Assembly: GCF_965363235.1 (NCBI RefSeq)
Contig: NC_134841.1
Coordinates: 32,889,440-32,953,439, forward strand
DNA from: Mytilus galloprovincialis
Taxonomy: Eukaryota > Mollusca > Bivalvia > Mytilida > Mytilidae
Direction: 5' to 3'
DNA length: 64,000 bases
Every line of letters starts with the position of its first letter. Position 1 is the first letter of the stretch. The translations under genes were made by a program, and so were the position numbers. This document shows, piece by piece, positions 3,358 through 57,867 of the stretch. The notes beneath the pieces were generated by a model. The model saw only the letters and a program-made list of their open reading frames with translations. It had not been told where the DNA came from and ran no database searches.

Positions 3358-3852
3358 AGATGCTCCGCAGGGCGCAGCTTTATACGACCGCAGAGGTGAA
3401 ACCCTGAACAGTTGGGGCAAGTATGGACACAATATTTAAGCTTGATACAGCTCTGAATTTGGATTGTGATTAAATAGTTGACATGCACAACATAGGTTTC
3501 TGACACAGAATGAATGTGGTCTAAGAACTTAAACATAAAAACTTTAAAATTTTAAATTGGACTTTTACCTATTATGGTCCAATATCCAAAATCTAAATAC
3601 ATGGTTAGATTCAGCATATCATAGAACCCCAAGAATTCAATTTTTGATGAAATCAAATAATGTTCAATTTTAGACCCTTTAGACCGCAATGTGGACCAAT
3701 TTGATAACTGGGCCCAAATATTAAAAATCTAAATACATGGTTAGATTCAGCATATTAAAGAACCCCATATATTCATTTTTTGTTGAAATAAAACAAAGTT
3801 TAATTTTTGACCCTTTGGACCTTAATGTAGACCAATTTGAAAACGGGACAAT

Positions 3853-15372: not shown

Positions 15373-15782
15373 TAACTTTCAACGGTAAATTTTATAACTA
15401 AAAGGTTATAAGAACTAACTTACTCAAAATATTCATTTGCCAGTCTGTTATGTCAATGGCTTTTGAAACTAATTTAAGGATATGATTATGATTATGATTG
15501 CATGATGGTCAAGAATATGCATAGCTAGCAATGATTACACATGTAGACATACCCGATCTTACTCCGTTTGACAAATTATTGATTAAAGACCATGTCTGTT
15601 TATAAATGGACTTATATTGTTTTAACTGACGAGAATGTTTTAGAAACCAGCATATCTTAAGTGTAAACAAATATCAGATATTGCAATATAACCATAAATG
15701 ATGCAAACGGATAGAATATACAACTTACACATCTTACGTTAAATGATAAACACGAATTGAAAAAAAAACGTACACAGCTGGT

Positions 15783-17195
15783 AACGATAAATGACCTCCA
15801 AGTGTAGTTGTAAACAACTTCCAAAGGTAACGATAAACTACCTAGAAGGTTAGTTATAAAAAAAACTTACGAAGGTAACGATAAATGACCTTCAATGGAA
15901 GTTATAAAAAAAACCAATTTACAACGGTAACGATAAATGACCTTCAATGGTAGTAAAAACAATTTACAAGGTAACGATAAACGACCTAGAAGGTTAGTTA
16001 TAAAAAAAAACTTACGAAGGTAACGATAAATGACCTTCAATGGAAGTTATAAAAAAACAATTTACAAAGGTAACGATAAATGACCTTCAATGGTAGTAAA
16101 AACAATTTACAAAGGTAACGGTAAATGATCTTCAATGGAAGTAAAAACAATTTACAAAGGTAACGATAAATGACCTTAAATGGTAGTAAAAGCATTTTAC
16201 AAGGTAACTATAAATGACCTTCAATTGTAGTAAAAAACAATTTACAAAAGTAACGATAAACGACCTTCAATGGTAGTAAAAAACATTTTACAAAGGCAAC
16301 GATTAATGACCTTCAATTAATGGTAGTAAAAAAAAAAACAATTTACAAAGGTAACGATAAATGACCTTCAATGTTAGTAAAAACAATTTACAAAGGTAAC
16401 GAGAAACGACCTTAAATGGTAGTAAAAAACAATTTACAAAGGTAACGATAAATGACCTTCAATGGTAGTAAAAACAATTTACAAAGGTAACGAGAAACGA
16501 CCTTAAATGGTAGTAAAAAACAATTTACAAAGGTAACGATAAATGACCTTCAATGTTAGTAAAAACAATTTACAAAGGTAACGAGAAACGACCTTAAATG
16601 GTAGTAAAACAATTTACAAAGATAACGATAAATGACCTTCAATGGTAGTAAAAACAATTTACAAAGGTAACGAGAAACGACCTTAAATGGTAGTAAAAAC
16701 AATGTACAAAGGTAACGATAAATGACCTTCAATGGTAGTAAAAAAACAATTTACAAAGGTAACGATAAACGACCTTCAATTGTAGTAATAAATAACGTAC
16801 ATAGGTTACGATAAATGATCTTCAATGGATGCATTAAACAACTTCCAAAGGTAACGATAAATGACCTTCAATGGAAGTTAAAAACAACTTCCAAAGGTAA
16901 GGATAAATGACCTTCATTGGAAGTAATAAACAACTAACAAAGGTAACGATAAATGACCTTCAATTGTAGTAATAAATAACTTACAAAGGTAACGATAAAC
17001 AATTAACAGCATTAGTAATTAAAAAAATACAAAAATAACGATAAATAATCAAAAGCAATAGTAATTAAAAAAGTACAAAGGTAACGATAAATAATTAAAA
17101 ATAGTAGTAATAAAAAAAATACAAAGGTAACAACAAATGATTATCAAATCAGTAATTACCAACTTACAAAGGTAACGATAAATGATTAGAGTCAT
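15783..17195. repeat. 45-bp minisatellite, about 30 copies
   Basis: The monomer is close to AAAGGTAACGATAAATGACC followed by TTCAATGGTAGTAAAAACAA and TTTAC. Copies are less diverged in the middle and more diverged at both edges, as expected for an array that turns over by unequal exchange. Between about 16335 and 16720 two monomer types alternate (ATAAATGACCTTCAATG and AGAAACGACCTTAAATG), giving a dimeric higher-order repeat of about 90 bp. Degenerate relatives continue to about 17190 and reappear at 17985-18130. Confidence 0.9.
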
Positions 17196-38246: not shown

Positions 38247-41200
38247 ATGGCGGCAGAAATTGAGTCGAGTGATGAAGAAATCGTTAGTTCTCGACGTCGA
38301 AGATTAAGTTCTGGTAGAAAAAGACAGTTGTTCACAGATTCTGGTAATGATTCCAGTGACGCGGAGAACGAGTGTTGTACCAAACGAGACAAACAAGTAA
38401 GTGTGTGTTTACTTAATATTAATATCTTCCGTGCCATGGGGCAAATACTGTAAATTTGTAATTTAGCTATAAATAGCAATTGGTTTTCCAATTCCTGATT
38501 TGTAACCATCAATTTCAATATCGATAGGATTTTCTGAGAACTTTTTAAAACTGTTTAAGACCACAATAACCTGAGTTTCTAACTTGGAATAATAAGTGAT
38601 AAAAGCTATATGCTTACATTTCAAATAATAAATTATCGTACATGACCGAGTACCCAAAATTTGATATGATATTAGATAAGATAAGATAACTTTATTAGCA
38701 CTAACACATTGACAATAAATGGTTTTATCGCTATTTTGTGCATTTTTCCTTTGATATTTTTTGTGATTTTTTCATATAATGCTACTCGCTTGAGATGGAA
38801 AATTATCGCTAGAAACTAATCAGGCACGTGGCGTTTCTAACGAAACTGACATGAAATTGACAACGTCGTCATAGGTAAAATAGCGATAAACTGGGTTGAG
38901 TTCAATATCGTAGCAGCTACGTAGCGGCTATCAGTATTTATGTAACAACTAATATATAGCTACACGTTCAATAGTGAAAATCTACGTAGCACTACGTAGC
39001 TGCTACGATATTGAACGCAGCCCAGATTATCATTGGTCATCTCAACTCGATTGCCTTTCTCGCTTTCGCCGTCCCGGCTCAAGCGAGAAAATCAATCTCG
39101 TTGAGATAATTATAGATTATCGTTGATCATCTCAACGAGATTGATTTTCTCGCTTGAGCTGGTACAGCGAAAGTGAGAAAAGCAATCGAGTTGAGATGAC
39201 CAATGATAATCTGTTTATCGCTATTTTACCTATGACGACGTTGTCAATTTCATGTCAATTTCGTTAGCAACGCCACGTGGCCTCCCTAGTTTCTAGCGAT
39301 ATTTTTTCCATCTCCAGCGAGAAGCATGATATGAAAATTATCACAAAAAAAGATCAAAAGAAAAAAGCACAAAATAGCGATAATCAACGATAATCTATTA
39401 TAAATGGCAACAAATTATAGACAAACTACAATAACATATATATAATGAAGGAGTGACAGTGGATAATTAATATATAAAAATAAAAGAGAAGCATATATAC
39501 ATTCTTACAGAAATCAAGTACCTTTTAATAATGAGTTTCTCAACAACAAGCATTCATTCAAATAATTGACAACAAATTTTAATATTGTTTGGGAATTACT
39601 ATTTAGAATTGATATAAGCAAGTTATGTGATAAAGAAGGTAATTTGTTGTTCAATAGGACATTATTTAATTTTTTAATGAGGTTATCTCTCGCATAGTTA
39701 TAAGAGGAACATTTTAAAAGAAAATGTAGTTCATCTTCAATGTCTCCATTGTTGCAGCAAAGACATACCCTACTCTGCTTTGGTATTTTTAGATATCGCC
39801 CTCTTTCAATAGATAAAGTATGAGCACTTAACCTCAATCTACATAATGTTGCATATCCAACTATCTCCGTCATCACGTGACTTTTACACTTAAGTTGTAT
39901 ATCGTTAATGGCCGATTGATTATCAATGAAAGTGAACGGGGTACATAGATAAAACGGTCATAACTTTTTTGTTATAATGTATATTTTCCCTCCCAACCCC
40001 GTGTTTTACAGTTAATAAATTTTTACAATTAAATATGTTTTAAGTTTCAGTTCAGAAATATGATTTCATGCTTCGAAATAAGTTTGAATATTGAGGTGAC
40101 ATAGCCACACAGCCTCCGTTGACATCTTCGTTAAAACTCGATAAAATTGCAATGGGACCTTTTTGTAAAATCAATTTTCTCAACTAATTTATTGGTACTT
40201 ATATCCTCCCAACTCCTAAAAAGATCGACAACATATTCATTTAAATGAAATCGCAAACCATATCAGTTCAGGTATTAAACTTTTTGCTTCGAAATTTGGT
40301 TGAAAAGTTCATATTTTGGCAGTTTTCAGTAATATTTTCAAAATGGCGGCCACTGTTGAGGGTTCACAACGACACGACATGCCGGTATTAATTTTATATG
40401 CATGTTATAAATTACTATACTGTGTTTTTATCGTCAATTTAATGCAAGTACAATGTGCATCTATCACCAACCTTTCCATTTAGGAAAATTGTCAAATTAT
40501 TTACAGCACTTCTTTTGATGGAGGTTTGAATTACTAGAGGGAGGTATGCTTACACTGTACATGTTTAATCATTTATTCAAATGAAGAGGTGCATATATTT
40601 AAACTATTTGTCTTTTGTACCTAATGGTCTGTGTCCAAAATGATGTCTTGTATCGTACTACTTCCTGTGGGTCCATTTATTGGATTATATAATACACTTC
40701 TTTTTCCATTTTATCAATCAGTCCCTGGGAAGAAGTTCAGAACGTATCCGGAAGCGACATTCCCAAGAGTTTCGAATGCCTGATAAGAATGATTACTGGA
40801 ATAAAATTCCCGACTGTCACAGTACTGTAGAGAGTGTGAAATCTTTGACACCGAGGAAAGTGATCAGCAACTTAACTAAAGTGTAAGTTTACATATACGT
40901 TTGTTTTACTAGGCAAAAAACTTGTGTATGGTGGTAAATCTTGACCCAAAGTATTGAACCATTTTAAACAGCACATATTTTCATTTGAGAATTAAATGGA
41001 CAGTGCTACGATATTGGTGGGTCGACGTTTCACGATGAATATCATACATCATGACATAATATTACATTTACCAAAAAAGTCATGGTAGTAAGTATAGTCT
41101 AATATTGTTTTACATGTCTTTGCGGACTAGCAAAACAACTTGAAATAACTCGTTCATATGAATTAGCCATCTACAATGATTTACACGTTACAGAATATAT

Positions 41201-42839: not shown

Positions 42840-43895
42840 TTTTTTATACCGATTTTTTTTTTTTTTTTTTTTTGTATATTGGTATCACGTCGTCGTCGTC
42901 GTCAGCGTCGTTCGAAGACAGATGATTTCCGGATAATAACTTTAGTATAAGTAAATAGAAATCAACACAAGGTCTATAACCACTAAAGGAAGGTTTGGAT
43001 TGAATTTGGGTGTTTTGGTCCCAACAGTTTAGGAATTAGGGACCAAAAAGGGGCACACAAGCATTTTTCTTGGTTTTCGCACTTAGTAAATAGAAATCTA
43101 TGAAATCTAAACACAAGGTTTATGACCACAAAAGAAAGGTTGGGATTGATTTTGGGAGTTTTGATCCAAACAGTTTAGGAATTAGGGGCCAAAAGGATCC
43201 AAATTAAACTTTGTTTGATTTGATCTAAAATTGAATTATTGGGGTTCTTTGATATGCCGAATCTAACCGCGTATTTAGATTCTAAATTTTTGGTCCCGTT
43301 TCAAATTGGTCTACATTAAGGTCCAAAGGGTTCAAAATTAGACTTAGTTTGATTTTTACAAAAATTGAATTATTGGGGTTCTCTGATGTGCTAAATCTAA
43401 ACATGTACTTACATTTTTTTATTATGGGCCCAGTTTTCAGGTTGGTCCAAATCAGGGTCCAAAATTAAACTTTGTTTGACTTCAACAAAAATTGAATATA
43501 TGGGGTTCTTTGATATCCTGAATCTAACCATGTATTTAGATTTTTGATATTTGGGCCCCTTTATCAAATTGGTCCACATTGAGTTCTAAAGGGTCCAAAA
43601 TTGAACTTTATTTGATTTCGTCAAAAATTGAATTCTTGGGATTCTTTGGTATGCTGAATCTAACAATGTATTTAGATTTTAGATATTGGATCATAATAGG
43701 TAAAAGTCCACTTTAAATTTTTTAAGTTCTTAGACCACATTCATTCTGTGTCAAAAACATATTCTTCGACAACTATTTAATCACAATTCAAATTCAAAGC
43801 AGTATCAAGCTTGAATGGTGTGTCCATACTTGTCCAAACTGTGCAGGGTTCGGCCTCTGAGGTCGTATCAAGCTGCGCCCTGCGGAGCATCTGGT
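42840..43895 (-). mobile_element. Non-autonomous element, family A, copy 2
   Basis: This is a reversed copy of the element at 3358-5250. It ends with CTGCGCCCTGCGGAGCATCT at 43876-43895, carries the GAATCTAACCATGTATTTAG-type blocks reversed, and near its other end has the GTATCACGTCGTCGTCGTCG tract matching 5180-5215. It lacks the insertion and the 35-bp array seen in copy 1, so it shows the uninterrupted structure. It begins about 290 bp after the gene at 38247-42551. Confidence 0.6.
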
Positions 43896-45132: not shown

Positions 45133-46712
45133 TATCTCTCCGACCTGTGTATTTTTGCAATTCTCTTCATTTTCTGCATCAGTAATTTAAATGTAGAATA
45201 AAAAGACAACGTTTGTGTAAATCTTTTTAAACCTCTGTGTTCATTATCGACGTCATGTCGAAATGGGTCATGACAATTTCTGTTTCATAACTGATTGACA
45301 AGATATCCTTGAACCGATAAATCAATTATATTAGGACAGTATGTGATAAGGGCTTTTTTTTTATGAAATGTAAACTGTGATTTAGAATTTATACTTGTAT
45401 AGACATTTAAAAGATTTAAAATGATAGTTCTAAGTTCAAAACCTGTAGTTTCGGATTTACTAAGGAAAAAAAAACATTGTGAAACGTTTCCCAAAAATAT
45501 TTTAAAAGCTTTTGTTCCCTCACTTATGTAGTACACGTGGGAGCCAACAAATGATCATTGCAGCGTCAATCTGAATACGAACAACACGTCTGTAATAGCT
45601 TTTTACTATGTTCAGTCTGGGAACATTATAAAAATGTTCACTGGTAAAAAAAAAACTGACCTAATATTATGAAATTGTTAAAACTGTTGATGATCAATAG
45701 TATTATTGTGTTTTCTAACAACCACATCAAAGAGTACCTTTTCAGAGAACGCCATGGGCTGTTTTGGTTGTGTGCTCAAACGTGTTAGACCTAGAAACAA
45801 TAAGCAAATGTTCTTTCACAATTATTCAGATATGAATAAAAAAATCCAACACATGTTTAACTGACCTTGAAACAAAAGAAAAAAATGAATTAAATGGAAA
45901 TACCAGTTGACGACAATTTGTCAAATATATAATTGACACCATATCGTGACTTAAAACTACATGTGCCCATCGATATCTATCTCCGCGGCTGTCTAGTTTG
46001 GTCTACATTCAGAGCAAGGAAAATGATTTCGAAAATGTATTCCATGTTCAATTAACTTTTCACCGATTTGACCTTTAGAATGTTAGTGATAACCATGACT
46101 TCGTGTCTTATCTTCTGGGTATTTCACTTCCATATTTACGATTTGATTGTTCACGGGGATGGCACCAGGTAAAGCATTTATGACATTTTGACAAAAACGT
46201 TACTTGTGGCTTATGTTTCTAAATACTTTAATATTTGACTCGCACTGACAGCTTCCTGTTCTTGATCGAACTAAGATTTTAATATTCATTTTTAAGTTAG
46301 GATTTCTGTAAAAAAAACATGCAAAACAGGAATTGATTGATATCTGTAGGTCAATAAAATTGAAAACTGCTTTACCAGCATATTGCAAATACTATTTAAT
46401 TAACTATTCTCGCAAACAGCGGAGATTAAGTCGGATTTTATGTGACAGTGCTCATCTTTTATTTTTCCGGTAGCAGCCACGAAAGTTTTTTGTGCAATGA
46501 AGTATACTTTTTTGTTGCAAATTTTGTTCAAAAATATTTAACATTAAATTTTATAACCTGGGGTCTAGATATTGGTCCTCGTTTCACAAACTGAGATCAC
46601 GGTACGAACTACCATGGACTATTATGCATGCAATGACACAGCAACCTAACGACACAAAACACCAAAGATATAGAGAGTCGTGCTACATTGTGTCGATCAA
46701 GACAGATGTGTT
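45133..46712. other. Gene-free region
   Basis: No supported gene. A minus-strand 83-codon frame at 45285-45536 has moderately balanced composition but no recognisable domain. A GGTCAAT-poor tract around 46625-46680 (GCAACCTAACGACACAAAAC) resembles 34918-34970 and is probably repeat. Confidence 0.3.
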
Positions 46713-47193
46713 AAAACAACGTATAAAGCTCTAAATCGTCAAAATCAATAAAACAACGTATAAAGCTCTAAATCGTCCCAATCAATAAAACAACGTATAA
46801 AGCTCTAAATCGTCAAAATCAATAAAACAACGTATAAAGCTCTAAATCGTCCCAATCAATAAAACAACGTATAAAGCTCTAAATCGTCAAAATCAATAAA
46901 ACAACGTATAAAGCTCTAAATCGTCCCAATCAATAAAACAACGTATAAAGCTCTAAATCGTCCCGATCAATAAAACAACGTATAAAGCTCTAAATCGTCC
47001 CGATCAATAAAACAACGTATAAAGCTCTAAATCGTCCCGATCAATAAAACAACGTATAAAGCTCTAAATCGTCCCGATCAATAAAACAACGTATAAAGCT
47101 CTAAATCGTCCCGATCAATAAAACAACGTATAAAGCTCTAAATCGTCCCGATCAATAAAACAACGTATAAAGCTCTAAATCGTCCCAATCAAT
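46713..47193. repeat. 37-bp tandem repeat, exactly 13 copies
   Basis: The unit AAAACAACGTATAAAGCTCT plus AAATCGTCCCGATCAAT repeats 13 times with changes only in a three-base window. The first six copies alternate TCAAAATC and TCCCAATC (a 74-bp dimer, three times), copies 7-12 all have TCCCGATC, and the last has TCCCAATC. This shows very recent unequal exchange or slippage. There are no unique spacers, so it is not a CRISPR array. Confidence 0.95.
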
Positions 47194-47935
47194 AAAAAAA
47201 AAACAGTTGAAAATAAATGTAACAGATATTTTTTAATCAATATAAAATTCTCAAATAACAAAAAACATTGATATGACCTACCGTGGATTACATTTACACA
47301 CTGTGACCTGGATTGAGAGTTGTCTCATATGAGACTCATACCACTTGATGGTTACCTTCTTTTTCTAGTATCTATTATATATATGACATAATGCAACCAA
47401 TTTTATATGTTGGGATTGAAGGCCAATTCCTACAAATTCGGAAATTTCGTAATGTTAACAGTAATTTTCTCAATGAACATATGAAATTATCTTAACCATT
47501 CAGCCACTGACTTATATAATGGCTAAGCCAATGACCTTCGTTAAACAGAATTGACGGGGTAAGCCAGTCACATTCGTAAACATCTTGATGATCACTATCC
47601 TTTTGACTAAAACTACCCAATTTAGTCAAAGATGACCTCTGAAAGTCATAGTAAAGTATGAATGTACTGAATAGATAATGACAAAATCAACAGTCCTTAT
47701 GATATTAAGATAACTTTATCATTATTTGTAAGCATGCATAACAAATAATATGCTATCTTGATTAGGTCTTCAAATCACGTGCATTGGTATGCCATTTTAG
47801 GATAAAACTTAATACATATGTACGTATTAATGAATAACATTTGATGTGGTATAACACCTCCACGTGCCAATGTGTACTCTCGTACTGTTACAACACATTT
47901 AAAGACAGCTAGTTTGGGTTTAGACTTGAAATTAA
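47194..47935. other. Gene-free region with reversed repeat B fragment
   Basis: A family B fragment in reverse lies at about 47290-47355, with GTGACCTGGATTGAGAGTTG and TCTCATATGAGACTCATACC. Otherwise nothing recognisable. Confidence 0.4.
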
Positions 47936-50189: not shown

Positions 50190-53100
50190 ATGCCCACCAC
50201 AAAATCCGTCGTCGGTACTATTGTACTATTATGTTGCTGCAGTGGGGCGTTTGCAGGATTTTATTTGAAGTCTTTATCCTATACAAAACTGCCAGCAACC
50301 ATATCTCCAACGAAAACCTTCAAAATGTTTGCTGGTACGGCCGAGGAAGCAGCCTATGACCCAACAAATGAAATGTTGTATGTTGTTGGTAAGTTGAATA
50401 AAATTGAGCTTTGAAATGGGGAATGTGTCAAAGAGACAACCCGAATAAAGACCAGAAAACAGCAGAAGGTCACCAATGTTTTTTTTTAAACTTCTTCCAT
50501 GTATAGTTTTATACTAGTATACGGAACTGTGGATAAGAACTAAAAAAAACTCTTCTGTGAATAAATAAAAAACTAATCAATATAATAGATAATTGAATTG
50601 TATTTTGTGGAAAACAAGAAACAACATAAAGTTAATAATAGTTCGGCTAGTTGAGGAATAATATGCCTGTATACCAAATTATATAAAATAAGTTATATTG
50701 GTTCAAATAATTTTACTTTTAACAGGTGAAGATTCTGGTCTCATGCACGTAATTGACGTATCAGATCCCGAAATGCCTCGAGTAGCAGCAACCCACACTT
50801 TCTCCAAGAGTGGTGACGGTAAACCCCGAGATGTTGCTGTTTGTGGAACAGAAGTTGCTGTCGTTTTGTCTTCACCTATAAAGGATGTGTATGAGGGACA
50901 TGTTTACTTCTTTCATGCACTAAGCAGAGCAGAATCACAACTTCAATATGACGGGAAACTTCCTGGTATATATACACACTTTGATATACACACACTTTGA
51001 TATACACACACTATGATAAACACACACTTTGATATACACACACTTTGATATACACACACTTTGATATACACACACTTTGATATACACACTTTAATATTCA
51101 CTCGCTTTGATATACACATAGTTTGATATATATATATATATATATACACTTTGAAATACACACGCTTTGATATACAACCACTTTGACACTTTGATATACA
51201 TGCGCTTTTATATATACACACTTTGTTATACACACATGGATATACAGACACTTTGATATACAAACATTTGATATACACACACTTTGATATACACACACTT
51301 TGATAAACATAAACTTTGATATACACACGCTTTTACATATAATCATTGATATACACAAACATTGATATATACACATTTTGATATACACGCGCTTTTATAT
51401 ATACACACCTTGATACACTTTGATATATATACACATTGATATACACGCACTTTGATATACACGCGCTTTTATATATATATATACACACTTTGATATACAC
51501 ACACTTTGATACACACGCACTTTGATATATATGCACTTTAATATACACACATTTTGATATTAACGCACTTTGATATAAAAGCTTTTTGATATACACACAC
51601 TTTGATTTACACACATTTTGATATACACGCACTTTGATATATATGCACTTTAATATACAAACATTTTGATATACACACACTTTGATATACACACACTTTG
51701 ATAAAACTTTTCAGTATAGTCTTTATAAAAATCGTCTTCTTTCAGTTTGTCATAATTTCCTTTGACGTTAAGATTCTATTTTATTTAGGCTGAGAGATTT
51801 CATTCGTTGATAGAATGATTGCATTCTATCTGTAGCTGTTAATAAGGTTTCAGATTTTTTATTTAGTTCTCAAGTATGAAACCCAATTTAATAATCGAAA
51901 AAACTGCTTTGCAACATCAACTCTTCTTTTTTATTTAGTTCTCAAGTATGAAACCCGATTTAATAATCGAAAAAACTGCTTTGCAACATCAACTAATTCT
52001 TTTTCTTTTGGTTACAAGTATATAAATTTGCATGTTTTTTATTTCTAATGATAATCTAATAAAAAAAAATGACAATTGACTGCATTTAAACTATTAGGTA
52101 AACGAAACAAAACAGAATAAAACGGAAATCAAAAAACAAAACAAAACAAAAACGTTTTATTTTTGACAGTTGAGAAAATGTGTATTTTCAGTGGGTCCTC
52201 ATCCAGACATGATAACCTTCAACCCAGCATGCACACAAATCCTCGTGGCCAATGAAGGACAAGTTGGTAAGGATATAGCCAATCAATTCTCAGACCCACC
52301 CGGAACAGTCACTATAATACAGAGAGAGAGATATGGAAACCCATCAGAACAAACAGTTGATTTTTCAAAAGGAGAAGGACAGTAAGAATATTTTTTTTTT
52401 ATTATTACATACATTGGTAAAGGGTCGGTATTTTTTTTATATACACTATCCTACTGGGCACACCCTAAATCTACCGTTCCTGAATTTTTTATTTTTTTTT
52501 TCTATCTCATGCCAGTGACCCAAAATCTTGTGATATTTTACCATTGAAGTACAATGTAATGGATTATCCAATCGGAAATCCACTGGTGAATCTGCTCCTC
52601 TCCTTCTCCTTATATGAAGGTACGGAATCGGTCGAGTTGTGAATTATCTAAATTATTATACCTCAGTATGTTTTGTCTATATAAAAAAATAATGAAATAG
52701 TTGTGCTATTTCATTCCCAGACTACTTGCCAGGCAATAGTTTCAAAGACTATTACCCCGGTTAATAGTTTCATCATCATCTTTTCCGTATTTTTTCGTGC
52801 TTATTTTTCATTGGACAATAATGATGCCATTGTCTATTTTGAACGCCAAACTCTAATATTGTAAACGGTATAATCTGTTTGTGTCGATTTTAATTTCACT
52901 TACAAGAAGCAATTACAAAAGAGAGAAAATCTTCGCGCGCATTATTAAAAGATCTAAAATATAGTACATTATTCATAATATGTCATCGTATTCTAAAAGT
53001 GAATTTGCGTTTGGTGTATTTTAGCTTAAATTTAATATATATACACGGAAAATTTAACACAAGTATTTCTAGTCTTGATTACAATTTATGAAATATTTAC

Positions 53101-56100
53101 AAATCCAAGAAGAACTATAAAAAAAACCGTATAGTTCATCTTGTGCATGTCAGGTTATGTGACATTTTTTCTTTTCTTTCGGATGATATATTTACACTTT
53201 AAGAAAATTAGTTACTTTGGTATATAAAAACCCTTAATGACTGTGTGTTGTTCAGTATAATAAAACACCTAATGACTGGTTGTGCGGGTAATAGCAAGTG
53301 TGTTGTCCCTTCGCATACCAACTATTGCTCTCGGCTTTGCCTCGAGCAATAGTTGGTATCTTAGGGACAACACACTCGCTATTACCCTCAAACCCAGTCA
53401 ATAGGTGTATAATATTCTTATAATTCAAGTGTGATCAGCCATCGAGATAAATTCGATCTTAAAGTTAAATATATGTTTAGGTTGTTGCTAACGTTTAGCT
53501 ATTTACGTTTTTAAAGCATTGCATATAAGATATGATTAATGTTGTTTTAGATATAATCTGCGAAGACCTTCATATTATATACCACCTAATATATGGCCAA
53601 GTACTCCACCAACGTTTACTCAGGATGCAGAGCCTGAATATATCGTTGTTTCTCCTGATGGAAAATTAGCTTATATCATCCTTCAGGTACTAATAGTATA
53701 CGGTACTCATAGCTTATATGACACCAAGCACTTATATATTATTGATTTCAGTATTGACCTATGTGTATCACATAAAAAAACATCACAAATGACGTCATTA
53801 GATATACAGAATGAAACAACATACACAACGGTTTCGTTAATACCAATAAAAAAAAATCGGTACTAAGCCTACATGTATTTTCAGATTGTTGTTAAAAATG
53901 GAGGACAGTGAGTTGGTCGATGGGACTTCAGTTCATAAAATGATATGGACAATTGTCAATCAATTGTCAAGTTTGCTAAAAATAATCAAAAATGATACCT
54001 ATATATAGTGTCACAGAAAAAAGCATTTTATCAGAACATAAAAGTAGGTGATACAGGGCCAGATATTTTACCCTGTATCGAAGGGAAAAACACAATGAGT
54101 CCAAACATCTGATTTTTTTTTTAAACCTGACATTACTATATCGTTAAAAGTAAACAGAAGTCTTGTGTCTTTACAGAAAAATAATGCCATAGCAACACTC
54201 GACCTTAAAACATTTGAAATGAAATCTATAACCTCAATACCTAGAAAAGAATGGAGGGACGACGGAATGGACCCTAGTGATAGAGATGGAGGTAAGAGGT
54301 GTTAAATAGGGCTGTTTTCTGTCCCTGTAAGAGGCTTTGGTCAGGTTGTTGTCTTATTGACACATTCCCCATTTCCATTTTCAATATCAGTTTATAAGGG
54401 AAATGATCGTTCTAATCCGTAATGTTTTAAGTGTAGATAAAAAATATATGGTATGATTGCCAATGAGACCACTCTCCACAAGAGACCAAATATCATAAGA
54501 ATTGGCCTTTTCTGGTGGAAGAAGACTGTTTTGATGTATAATACACATAATAAAAATAAAACTCCTTGGAACTGGTAGAATTGAGCAAATGTTTTTAAAT
54601 AGATATACTGGTTTAATTGTGTTGCGTGAGTTGACGTCGGATTTCAAAATCACCTTAGTCTTAACCTGGGCACCCTTTTGGCTAAACCAGAAACTGGTGA
54701 AATGAATTATCCAAGCCAATGTAAAGTCATCACTTTACGTACTATCTTTACACAATACATATTTTCAAGACAAGAAGAAGTATCTTTTGAAAATGCATGA
54801 ACAGAGGACTCAGAACAGTCCATTATAAACTTAACACTTGAGGGTGTTGCAACTCAGAACAGTCCATTATAAACTTAACACTTGAGGGTGTTGCAACTCA
54901 GAACAGTCCATTATAAACTTAACACTTGAGGGTGTTGCAACGTATGACCTGATATTCATTAAACGGATTAAATTTTTGCAAGGAAATCTTATTCTTATTT
55001 GAAACATTTTGATGTGAAAAAAATATGCATTCAGACTTTTTTAAAAACATTATTCTTATTATATTACCAGGACCTGCTAGAAATAAGTTAATGGGTTTTT
55101 TTTCTTCAAAAATTGATATTCTGGTATGATTGAGTTGCGGGAGCTGACGTCGCATTAAAAAAATATTTCGTTTTAACGCGTGGACATCCCAGAAGATTAA
55201 AAAAAAACAAAAACAATTGAAAATGAATATATGCAAGTAAAGAATTATGAAAAAATTCTACATTTCAGGTGCACATTTAAGCAAGTTTCCATTATACAGT
55301 ATTAAGCAACCAGACAATACAAAGATACTAACAGTAGGAAAGACAAACTATTTAATAACTGCTGATGAAGGTCATTATGTTACATACACAAGGGCAACTC
55401 ATGGTTTTGATTGGAGTGACCACCAGAGAGCGGATGTTTTAACCAGAGGTATAAGTTTAGATAAAATTTTGATAGCCCAATGAGAACATATTCTTCAATC
55501 ATACACAAAATCTCGTTTGACATTCGTGTTTTATTCATGCATAACAATTCTGAAGTAAATTTTAGATAATTGTGTTCACACGTAATGAATAGTTCATGCA
55601 ATAGAAACTAGCATATCCTTTTATAGGTAGCTATTCGGTGTGAGTCAAGGCTTCATGTTGAAGGACGTACTTTGACTTATGTAATGATTTACTTGTACAA
55701 ATTGTGACTTGGAGGGAGAGTTATCTCATTGGCGTCCATACCACGTCTTTCATGAAGAATTCTACGCAACATTGCCGTCTATGGGATTATTGGGACGATA
55801 GAGTACTGCAAATTTCATGAAAAAATTATTATAGTATATTTTATCTTTTGTTGGTAGGTAAAAAGTTTGACGAAAACGCAATAAACAATCAGACTTTCAT
55901 CGCTCAACTCACAGCTGATTCTAAAGCAGGTAATGTTAACTTATCCTAGCATTTATTATTTAGCAAAAATATTCAGTTCGACTTGGAACTGAAAAACCGT
56001 AAATTTGATATTTTTTAAACCATCTTTTGATTTTGATTTTGTCAGTTTTATAGTAGAGTTCATCTTTTTGAGTTGGCCTTTGTGTTCTGTATTTTAGTAT

Positions 56101-57839
56101 TAGCTTTATATTAGTATTCTTGCACACATCGTAATCCTTCTGTGTGTGTGTCATTGTGATTAGATGATCCGATTCATATTAGTTTTTTCTGGTCAATTTT
56201 TTTCTTGAGATTCTTAGATAAAGTTTCGACAGAACCACCCTACAAAATGTATTCACTCAAGATTACTTTTAATTTTAGCTATCGAGAGTGCATAAATATT
56301 TTCTGAAATAATTTACAGCAGGTAAAAGTAAAATACCAAGTACAGTGCTCCGAAAAGATATGGCGTGAAATTACAGGAGACAAAATTAATCGACAAGTAG
56401 TGTATCAAACTGGTCAGAAACGGTTAAAAAGCGCACAAATTCAAATATAAGTAAACTTTCTTTCTTTTAGGTAGATTACAAGTCAGTCAAACGGAGGGAT
56501 ATAATCCATTTACACAGAAACTTTCAAGAGCTTCACATTTCGGTGGCCGTGGATTTTCAATATGGAATGCAAATTCATTTTCACTGATTTATGACTCCAA
56601 AGATGAAATTGAGAGAAAGACAGATCTGTTATTCCCTGATGTGTTTAATAGTGATTGTTTACCAAATACAATGACATACCAATCTCCTGCTAACTTGAAA
56701 GACACAACCTCGGACGATATGGTAAGATATTATACGTGACATTTATCTGGGAAAAGTACCCGTATGACAAAAGAGAGGATAAGTTGTTTGACGGAAAACT
56801 GCTGTAAATAGTATCTTTTTTTCGATTATCAATTCTTATCTTTTTCAATTTACCTTTCAAATAGCGAAAAGTAGCATAAAAGAGAATGTTTCAATACTTC
56901 TTTTTAAATGGAGTGAATTCAGTCTTTTTCTATAGAAAGAAAAAACTATGCCATGGGTGAAATACACCCTTTCTCAATTGCAGGGACCAAAGTTAAATGC
57001 TTTAGATGTGGCAACAGACAATGAAGATACTTTCTTATTGACCGGAAGTGAGACAAGTGGTGTTCTGTTCCTGTATTCAATCAATACTACTTCCGGCTAC
57101 CCTATACCTAAGTTTGAGAGTGCCCACAGAGCTGGTCTGACTGACTATGTTTGGTCTGAACTTTACGAAATGAATGAGGCTGGTGATGCTCAAATGTCAG
57201 CAATTGGGTAATGTATAATTGTCTAGTATCTAGTATATCATACGTTCGCTGGCGTATTGTTTGCCATCTTGAATCTGATTATATAGATTTACCAAATCGA
57301 GAGCGAAATATATAAGTATTTACATTGTGTCTGTTTGATTGACTTAAAATATACATGCATTCAATTATTTGGACTTTTCATATTTAAATATGGTTACATT
57401 AGAATCGTTTTATTAAGTATGCAAAAATGGTGGATGAAAACATCTAAATATACATTTTTTATTGAAATTTTGGAATAGTGACTTAAATATTAATGCATGG
57501 GTTTATACTTACTCCCGCTATATTTCAGTTATTCGTTAATTCATGATGATATAAGCATTTCAATTTTAGTGTGAAATTCCTAGATGTCACAAAAGAAAAA
57601 AAAAATAGAATTGCACATTTTATTTGCCAAAGCAAACAAATGAGTTTTCCAATTATTCTTTTTTCATAAAAAAAAGTTACTTTTTAATGACAATACTTAC
57701 ACAGAATTTTAAATTGATTTTTTTTTTCTTTTTCAGCATCATCAAATCGAGTGAACACCGAGCCAATAAGACAATGGCATACGTCATCGGTAGTGCCTCT
57801 GGTACCGTGTCTCTGTATGAAATCAAACGAACCACATAA
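50190..57839 (+). CDS. MSP130-like secreted glycoprotein, 10 exons, 569 aa
   Basis: Exons: 50190-50388, 50726-50965, 52192-52381, 53551-53686, 54177-54291, 55269-55448, 55858-55929, 56471-56721, 56984-57207, 57737-57839. All junctions are GT-AG and in phase (1710 nt). Residues 1-22 form a signal peptide (hydrophobic IVLLCCCSGAFA, cleavage after AFA). The rest is a beta-propeller-like choice-of-anchor I domain: EEAAYDPTNEMLYVVG (about 51), GLMHVIDVSDPEMPRVA (about 70), GPHPDMITFNPACTQILVAN (about 148), QDAEPEYIVVSPDGKLAYI (about 234), NYLITADEGH, HFGGRGFSIW then LIYDSKDEIE (about 399-425), and a final YVIGSASGTVSLYEI strand. In sea urchins MSP130 is a surface glycoprotein of skeleton-forming cells; mollusc homologues are linked to shell formation, probably as extracellular calcium-handling or matrix proteins. 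The tail has no hydrophobic GPI-type end, so I infer a secreted protein. Bacterial relatives led to a published proposal of ancient horizontal transfer. Confidence 0.92.
50966..51705. repeat. 16-bp minisatellite in MSP130-like intron 2
   Basis: Units of ACACACTTTGATATAC with many variants fill about 740 bp, starting directly at the exon 2 donor (GTATATATACACACTTTG). The AC/AT-rich array gives long minus-strand open frames rich in Tyr, Ile, Cys, Val, Ser and Lys (50943-51692); these are artefacts. Confidence 0.95.
51855..51996. repeat. Tandem duplication, unit 72 bp, 2 copies
   Basis: TTATTTAGTTCTCAAGTATG through GCTTTGCAACATCAACT occurs twice with one clear base difference (CCCAATTT, CCCGATTT). 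It lies in intron 2 of the MSP130-like gene. Confidence 0.9.
53254..53413. mobile_element. Hairpin MITE in MSP130-like intron 3
   Basis: AACACCTAATGACTGG at the left pairs with CCAGTCAATAGGTGT at the right. Arms of about 70 bp include AATAGCAAGTGTGTTGTCCC and TACCAACTATTGCTC and meet near GGCTTTGCC. No coding capacity. Confidence 0.85.
54330..54500. repeat. Dispersed repeat fragments in MSP130-like intron 5
   Basis: TTGTCTTATTGACACATTCC (near 54345) matches the fragment near 10500, and ATATGGTATGATTGCCAATG (near 54447) is the family B core. Confidence 0.5.
54809..54940. repeat. 44-bp tandem repeat, 3 identical copies
   Basis: CTCAGAACAGTCCATTATAA through GAGGGTGTTGCAA repeats three times with no difference, in intron 5 of the MSP130-like gene. 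Identity implies recent amplification, or very recent origin of the allele in this assembly. Confidence 0.95.
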
Positions 57840-57861: not shown

Positions 57862-57867
57862 AATAAA
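57862..57867 (+). promoter_or_regulatory. Polyadenylation signal AATAAA
   Basis: It begins 23 nt after the stop codon of the MSP130-like gene and suggests a very short 3-prime untranslated region. Confidence 0.65.

Follow-up and report, generated by a model that had tools for sequence, protein, structure and literature searches.

A 64,000-nucleotide stretch of the genome of the mussel Mytilus galloprovincialis (the window) holds on its plus strand, at positions 50190–57839, a ten-exon MSP130-like gene, referred to here as W. The most useful new fact about it is that its gene structure is common to three deep branches of its family in one genome. The explanation that best fits the observations, and that we regard as probable though well short of certain, is that W is a working gene that shares an intron-bearing ancestor with the other family members of this genome, and that its product would be a soluble, secreted, seven-bladed choice-of-anchor I glycoprotein that binds a partner.

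That W is a real and complete gene, correctly read in an earlier note made from the same letters, is confirmed. Joined in phase, its ten exons encode 569 residues, and all nine introns run from GT to AG. The choice of GT and AG borders near the proposed exons gives two open solutions, one of 569 and one of 571 residues, the longer using a weaker donor in exon 6, 6 nt downstream. When the exon template is slid along the window, the only other offsets that leave it open are −3, −6, −9 and −12, and all 55,561 offsets beyond 300 bases carry at least 14 stops. The GGRGFSIW and DAEPEYIVVS marks had been named as signs of the family, and GGRGFSIW and DAEPEY are located where they were claimed to be (Table 1). 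The coding part has a G+C content of 41%, against 30% in the introns, and an AATAAA begins 23 bases past the stop.

The genome searched is a 1.385-Gb assembly of 331 contigs, and the window lies on a contig of 105 Mb (C4). The Pfam family Myticin-prepro has 17 matches in this assembly and none in 14 control genomes, in accord with a mussel host, since myticins are peptides of Mytilus-type mussels. Searches with W, with two of its paralogues (E and F) and with the Pfam profile PF22494 gave matches at three places only: W itself, a cluster of five genes (A–E) about 34 Mb away on the same contig, and a pair of neighbouring genes (F and G) that are 79% identical to each other. The family therefore counts at least eight genes, and all gene counts given here are lower bounds. 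W is 33–34% identical to A–E and 30–31% identical to F and G. The seven paralogue models were computed with a purpose-written spliced aligner, which sees the protein and the splice letters but not the intron positions of W, and which recovered W exactly as a control. Some details of these models are doubtful: A has a questionable 12-nt exon, the last exon of B is absent, the intron-3 acceptor of E is badly placed, one extra intron in F is uncertain, and the models of F and G lack their first exon. No stops occur inside the printed models of A–G.

It is in these models that the common structure becomes evident. In A, C, D and E each of the nine W introns recurs with its phase unchanged, and for eight the alignment column is identical as well; the remaining one, intron 3, is offset within a gapped stretch by three columns in A, C and D and by seven in E. 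In B, all eight of the W introns that fall in the modelled part are present, with intron 3 three columns off. F likewise has eight of eight modelled W introns, with intron 3 three columns and intron 6 one column off, G has eight introns at the positions and phases of F, and both genes have an in-phase acceptor at the place of intron 1. The chance that eight of eight introns fall on nine given sites is about 2e-12 under random placement over 150 possible sites, a figure that counts exact hits and is too strict for the two introns of F that lie one and three columns off. Within this genome, then, the introns of W are common to its homologues, and the view that nine introns reflect long residence in the animal genome is strengthened, because those introns are common to seven paralogues.

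The relationship to prokaryotic proteins was examined with an alignment that has F as its first row and contains 428 relatives among 482 matched stretches of prokaryotic genomes, of which the best 80 were kept. Together with four rows from plasmid-collection records they make 84, and these were cut to 49 for the tree by dropping any row with at least 70% identity to a kept one or with fewer than 400 residues. Scanned with W alone, prokaryotic genomes gave no match, which reflects a limit of pattern choice, since the alignment found 428 relatives; a viral scan with W alone likewise found nothing. W scores best against A–E (280–310 bits), whereas the prokaryotic proteins reach at most 187 bits in the 71 of 84 rows used for the comparison. 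F, in contrast, scores 279 bits (38% identity) against a protein of SAR324 (L042) and no more than 241 bits against the mussel paralogues other than G. In the maximum-likelihood tree of the eight mussel and 49 prokaryotic rows, rooted at the midpoint for drawing only, all eight mussel genes nevertheless lie on one side of a branch (support 100/100), F and G stand together, and W is sister to A–E (100/99). The kept relatives are those nearest F, so that the sampling favours F joining the bacteria, and the tree did not place it there. Trees with F and G placed beside L042 (p-AU 0.0045) or beside six prokaryotic rows (p-AU 0.005) were rejected.

Shared introns and tree agree, and they argue for the descent of the eight mussel genes from one intron-bearing ancestor rather than from separate bacterial transfers. 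F and G are more similar to bacterial proteins than to W or A–E and yet share the introns, which argues against separate transfers even for them. A possible bacterial source of that ancestor is neither polarised nor dated by these data; it is separate transfers alone, for the genes of this genome, that they argue against. Whether animal MSP130 genes have a single or a repeated bacterial origin is debated (PMC4237138, PMC4536745): many separate transfers are proposed in PMC4237138, and one bilaterian origin is argued for in PMC4536745 and in the account that PMC7351957 gives of Szabo and Ferrier. The mussel copies differ from one another about as much as from the bacterial proteins; the introns that they share provide evidence beyond sequence similarity, and in the case of this mussel that evidence speaks for a single ancestor. 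A fuller account can be proposed tentatively, and we place it somewhat below an even chance: a single acquisition or ancestral gain, with introns in place before the oldest duplication, after which W, as a third deep branch, would have lost the RSDDxGPE site and other marks retained in its relatives and, as a released propeller, taken up a new extracellular role. If that is true, the gene structure found in one genome contradicts repeated bacterial transfer even for F and G, the most bacterial-looking members.

Two of the prokaryotic records have features of their own. In a Bacteroidota sequence (L048), a 1088-residue open frame has, by eye, a 5'-nucleotidase/metallophosphoesterase-like sequence after the choice-of-anchor I domain, and in the archaeon Halorussus limi (L127, 2905–4539) the gene lies between hemG and hemE, with hemE on the opposite strand.

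The assignment to the choice-of-anchor I / MSP130-like family, already made in the earlier note, is upheld by a match of residues 48–565 to PF22494 (choice_anch_I; E 1e-39) that spans positions 12–489 of the 489 in the profile and whose 137.2 bits are four times the curated cut-off of 32. W is thus a member of a known, debated animal family; it matches nearly the whole profile and differs from it in its nine introns, its animal host and the change of several near-invariant residues. Residues 51–499 also match NF038117, the NCBIfam model for naming prokaryotic choice-of-anchor I family proteins, with E 3e-73 but 247.2 bits, below the cut-off of 300, which F exceeds with 365.4 bits.

Hydrophobic 15-residue windows are confined to residues 3–26 of W, which bears out the proposed signal peptide, and the C-terminus is hydrophilic, with no hydrophobic window after residue 26 and no GPI-type tail, as had also been proposed. 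The protein has three N-glycosylation sequons, and its mature chain has a mass of 60.6 kDa and an isoelectric point of 5.2. The protein is probably secreted. The suggestion that W is a secreted form without a GPI tail holds with respect to signal and tail, but not as a peculiarity of W: the C-terminus was modelled for every paralogue except B, whose end was not found, and in these six (A, C, D, E, F and G) a stop likewise comes 5 to 8 residues beyond the last modelled residue, with no GPI-type tail. Because these six are alike, a missing tail is no mark of a special form, and release seems to be usual for the family in this genome. The link of W to the sea-urchin protein MSP130 runs through mollusc proteins called mesenchyme-specific cell surface glycoprotein (PMC6368272, PMC4023409). 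MSP130 is lipid-anchored, to judge by the title under which PMC4536745 cites Parr 1990, whereas W has no such tail, and its paralogues in the sea urchin gained repeats (PMC7351957), for which W has no room outside the propeller.

The modelled structure of a bacterial relative of W is a seven-bladed beta-propeller. Its fold matches are the propellers WDR5, COPB2 and YncE and the archaeal surface layer protein 1l0q, the last also matched by sequence profile (E 1e-8); they resemble the relative in fold at about 9–15% identity in the rows listed, and no shared function is implied. A search of the PDB with W alone gave a single weak match (E 0.3). An enzymatic reading, from a fold match to the phosphotriesterase 5hrm, was set aside: the TM-score is about 0.5, and WD40 proteins score equally. 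A snail shell protein listed as a mesenchyme-specific cell surface glycoprotein has WD40/YVTN-like domains (PMC4023409).

Taken together, these observations allow a mechanism to be sketched. W, the A–E cluster and the F/G pair would have arisen through duplication and divergence of a single ancestral gene that already bore introns, and W would be a functional gene in the nucleus of a Mytilus-type mussel, expressed as a glycoprotein of about 61 kDa that is secreted and soluble. The signal peptide would export the protein from the cell, where, in the absence of an anchor, it would stay soluble or join a matrix, and the conserved face of its propeller would, to judge by the fold class, bind a partner such as cations, a mineral surface or another matrix molecule.

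The divergence of W bears on what that partner may be. At 112 columns kept in at least 85% of the 49 prokaryotic rows, those rows differ at 1 to 19 positions, G at 30, F at 32 and A–E at 42–47, with 1–7 gaps besides in the mussel paralogues; F and G thus retain more prokaryotic motifs than W. Changes found only in W, at residues kept in all seven paralogues, include D159A, E256K, G277P, R457T and E464K. As for the conserved acidic positions, W keeps 19 of 33, A–E keep 16–17, and F and G keep 27 of 32, so that W is no worse off than A–E in this respect. As W has altered several conserved motifs, it has probably moved away from F and G in ligand or role. Its divergence may be read as a change of ligand or role within a retained fold, the alternative being relaxed constraint.

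Several points weigh against the favoured explanation. The single seven-bladed propeller predicted for W is taken from the model of the bacterial relative and not from W itself, and the placing of the conserved motifs on one propeller face would follow from the fold class, not from coordinates. W differs at 50 of the 112 conserved columns, gaps not counted, and its end branch is the longest in the tree (1.37); the long branch and the changed columns would also fit decay of function. Finally, the tree program issued a composition warning for W, E, F, G and three prokaryotic rows, and an odd letter make-up of this kind can pull rows of a tree together.

Among the rival explanations, the one that fares best, a serious candidate to which we give slightly less than even weight, is that W has diverged from its paralogues and serves a purpose outside the cell other than mineral formation; haemolymph, immunity, larval tissue, nerve-associated cells and byssus are examples of where it might act. 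The long branch of W, the changes at conserved columns that are its own and its distance of about 34 Mb from the A–E cluster on the same contig are in keeping with such a role, as are reports on related proteins: a homologue increased in abundance in geoduck larvae and is tied by the authors to embryonic development (PMC7142153), and a review assigns msp130 to a cluster of glial cells in scallop catch muscle (PMC12040844). Changes in sequence are not by themselves proof, however, of a new role.

A part in building the shell is plausible, but that W is a shell-matrix or mantle protein directly active in the deposition of calcium carbonate seems to us less likely than the preceding alternative. 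Proteins named MSP130 or mesenchyme-specific cell surface glycoprotein have been reported in the shells of land snails, oyster and a brachiopod (PMC6368272, PMC4023409, PMC4536745), as has a similar protein in the feather-star skeleton (PMC7351957), and W is acidic and has a signal peptide. On the other hand, animals that have no mineralised parts possess family members too (PMC4897951), the MSP130 genes of brittle stars and sea stars have no counterpart protein in the skeleton proteomes of these animals (PMC7351957), W keeps fewer of the conserved acidic positions than F and G, though A–E keep still fewer, and seven other candidate genes exist in the genome. The function of msp130 has itself been called unclear (PMC6368272). 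For claims about biomineralisation this is a caution: the presence of a family member in the shell needs testing, not assuming.

To the idea that W is a pseudogene in decay, or that chance open frames were joined artificially, we give very little credence. Its branch is the fastest in the tree and conserved sites are altered, but 1707 coding bases run without a stop between 18 GT or AG borders, and both readings were rejected on the open frame, the splice borders, the AATAAA beyond the stop and the identity of 33–34% to A–E over the alignment. The notion that W came from bacteria in a transfer of its own, separate from the other mussel genes, for which one could invoke the multiple transfers into animal clades proposed by Ettensohn 2014 (according to PMC4237138), is the least credible of all and was rejected, given introns common to all seven paralogues (chance of about 2e-12) and mussel copies that group together with support of 100/100 and 100/99.

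Table 1. Features of W and its surroundings (window positions) and locations of the family genes (contig positions)
Feature	Position	Strand	Basis or remark
Exon 1, start codon and putative signal peptide (residues 1–22, ~50190–50255)	50190..50388	+	border choice, hydrophobicity; cleavage site by eye
Exon 2	50726..50965	+	border choice; 34–42% match in paralogues' own exons
16-nt minisatellite (ATATACACACACTTTG), ~47 copies, much of intron 2	50968..51703	+	
Exon 3	52192..52381	+	border choice
Exon 4, DAEPEY from 53624	53551..53686	+	border choice, motif
Exon 5	54177..54291	+	border choice
Exon 6	55269..55448	+	border choice; alternative donor after 55454 likewise in frame
Exon 7	55858..55929	+	border choice
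Exon 8, GGRGFSIW from 56542	56471..56721	+	border choice, motif
TSDDM, start of relatives' RSDDxGPE site	56707..56721	+	T457; K464 in exon 9, to 56992
Exon 9	56984..57207	+	border choice
Exon 10 with TAA; hydrophilic C-terminus, no GPI-type tail	57737..57839	+	border choice, hydrophobicity
AATAAA, possible polyadenylation signal	57862..57867	+	
W	C4, ~32.94 Mb		
Cluster A–E, five genes	C4, 66.908–67.027 Mb	two minus, three plus	
F and G	C6, 96.077–96.113 Mb	minus	L040, L041, L122, L123

Repeats are found both within W and elsewhere in the window. The minisatellite of intron 2 contains two long open frames on the minus strand. Intron 3 has an inverted repeat (53260–53413) with 51-nt arms that are 86% complementary, like a short inverted-repeat mobile element, and intron 5 has three perfect 44-nt tandem copies (54808–54941), a sign of recent expansion. 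The window has 169 stop-to-stop frames of at least 60 residues, and a Pfam scan covered four open frames; no tRNA and no Rfam match at gathering score was found in the window. Long tandem arrays lie at 15780–17185 (about 26 copies of 46 nt) and 46712–47197 (about 13 copies of 37 nt), and the units of two further arrays, at 3581–3844 and 43193–43687, look by eye like reverse complements of each other. On the minus strand, one of the four scanned open frames, at 39517–39876, gives a weak match to a reverse transcriptase zinc-binding domain (E 0.03, below the cut-off), possibly a retroelement remnant.
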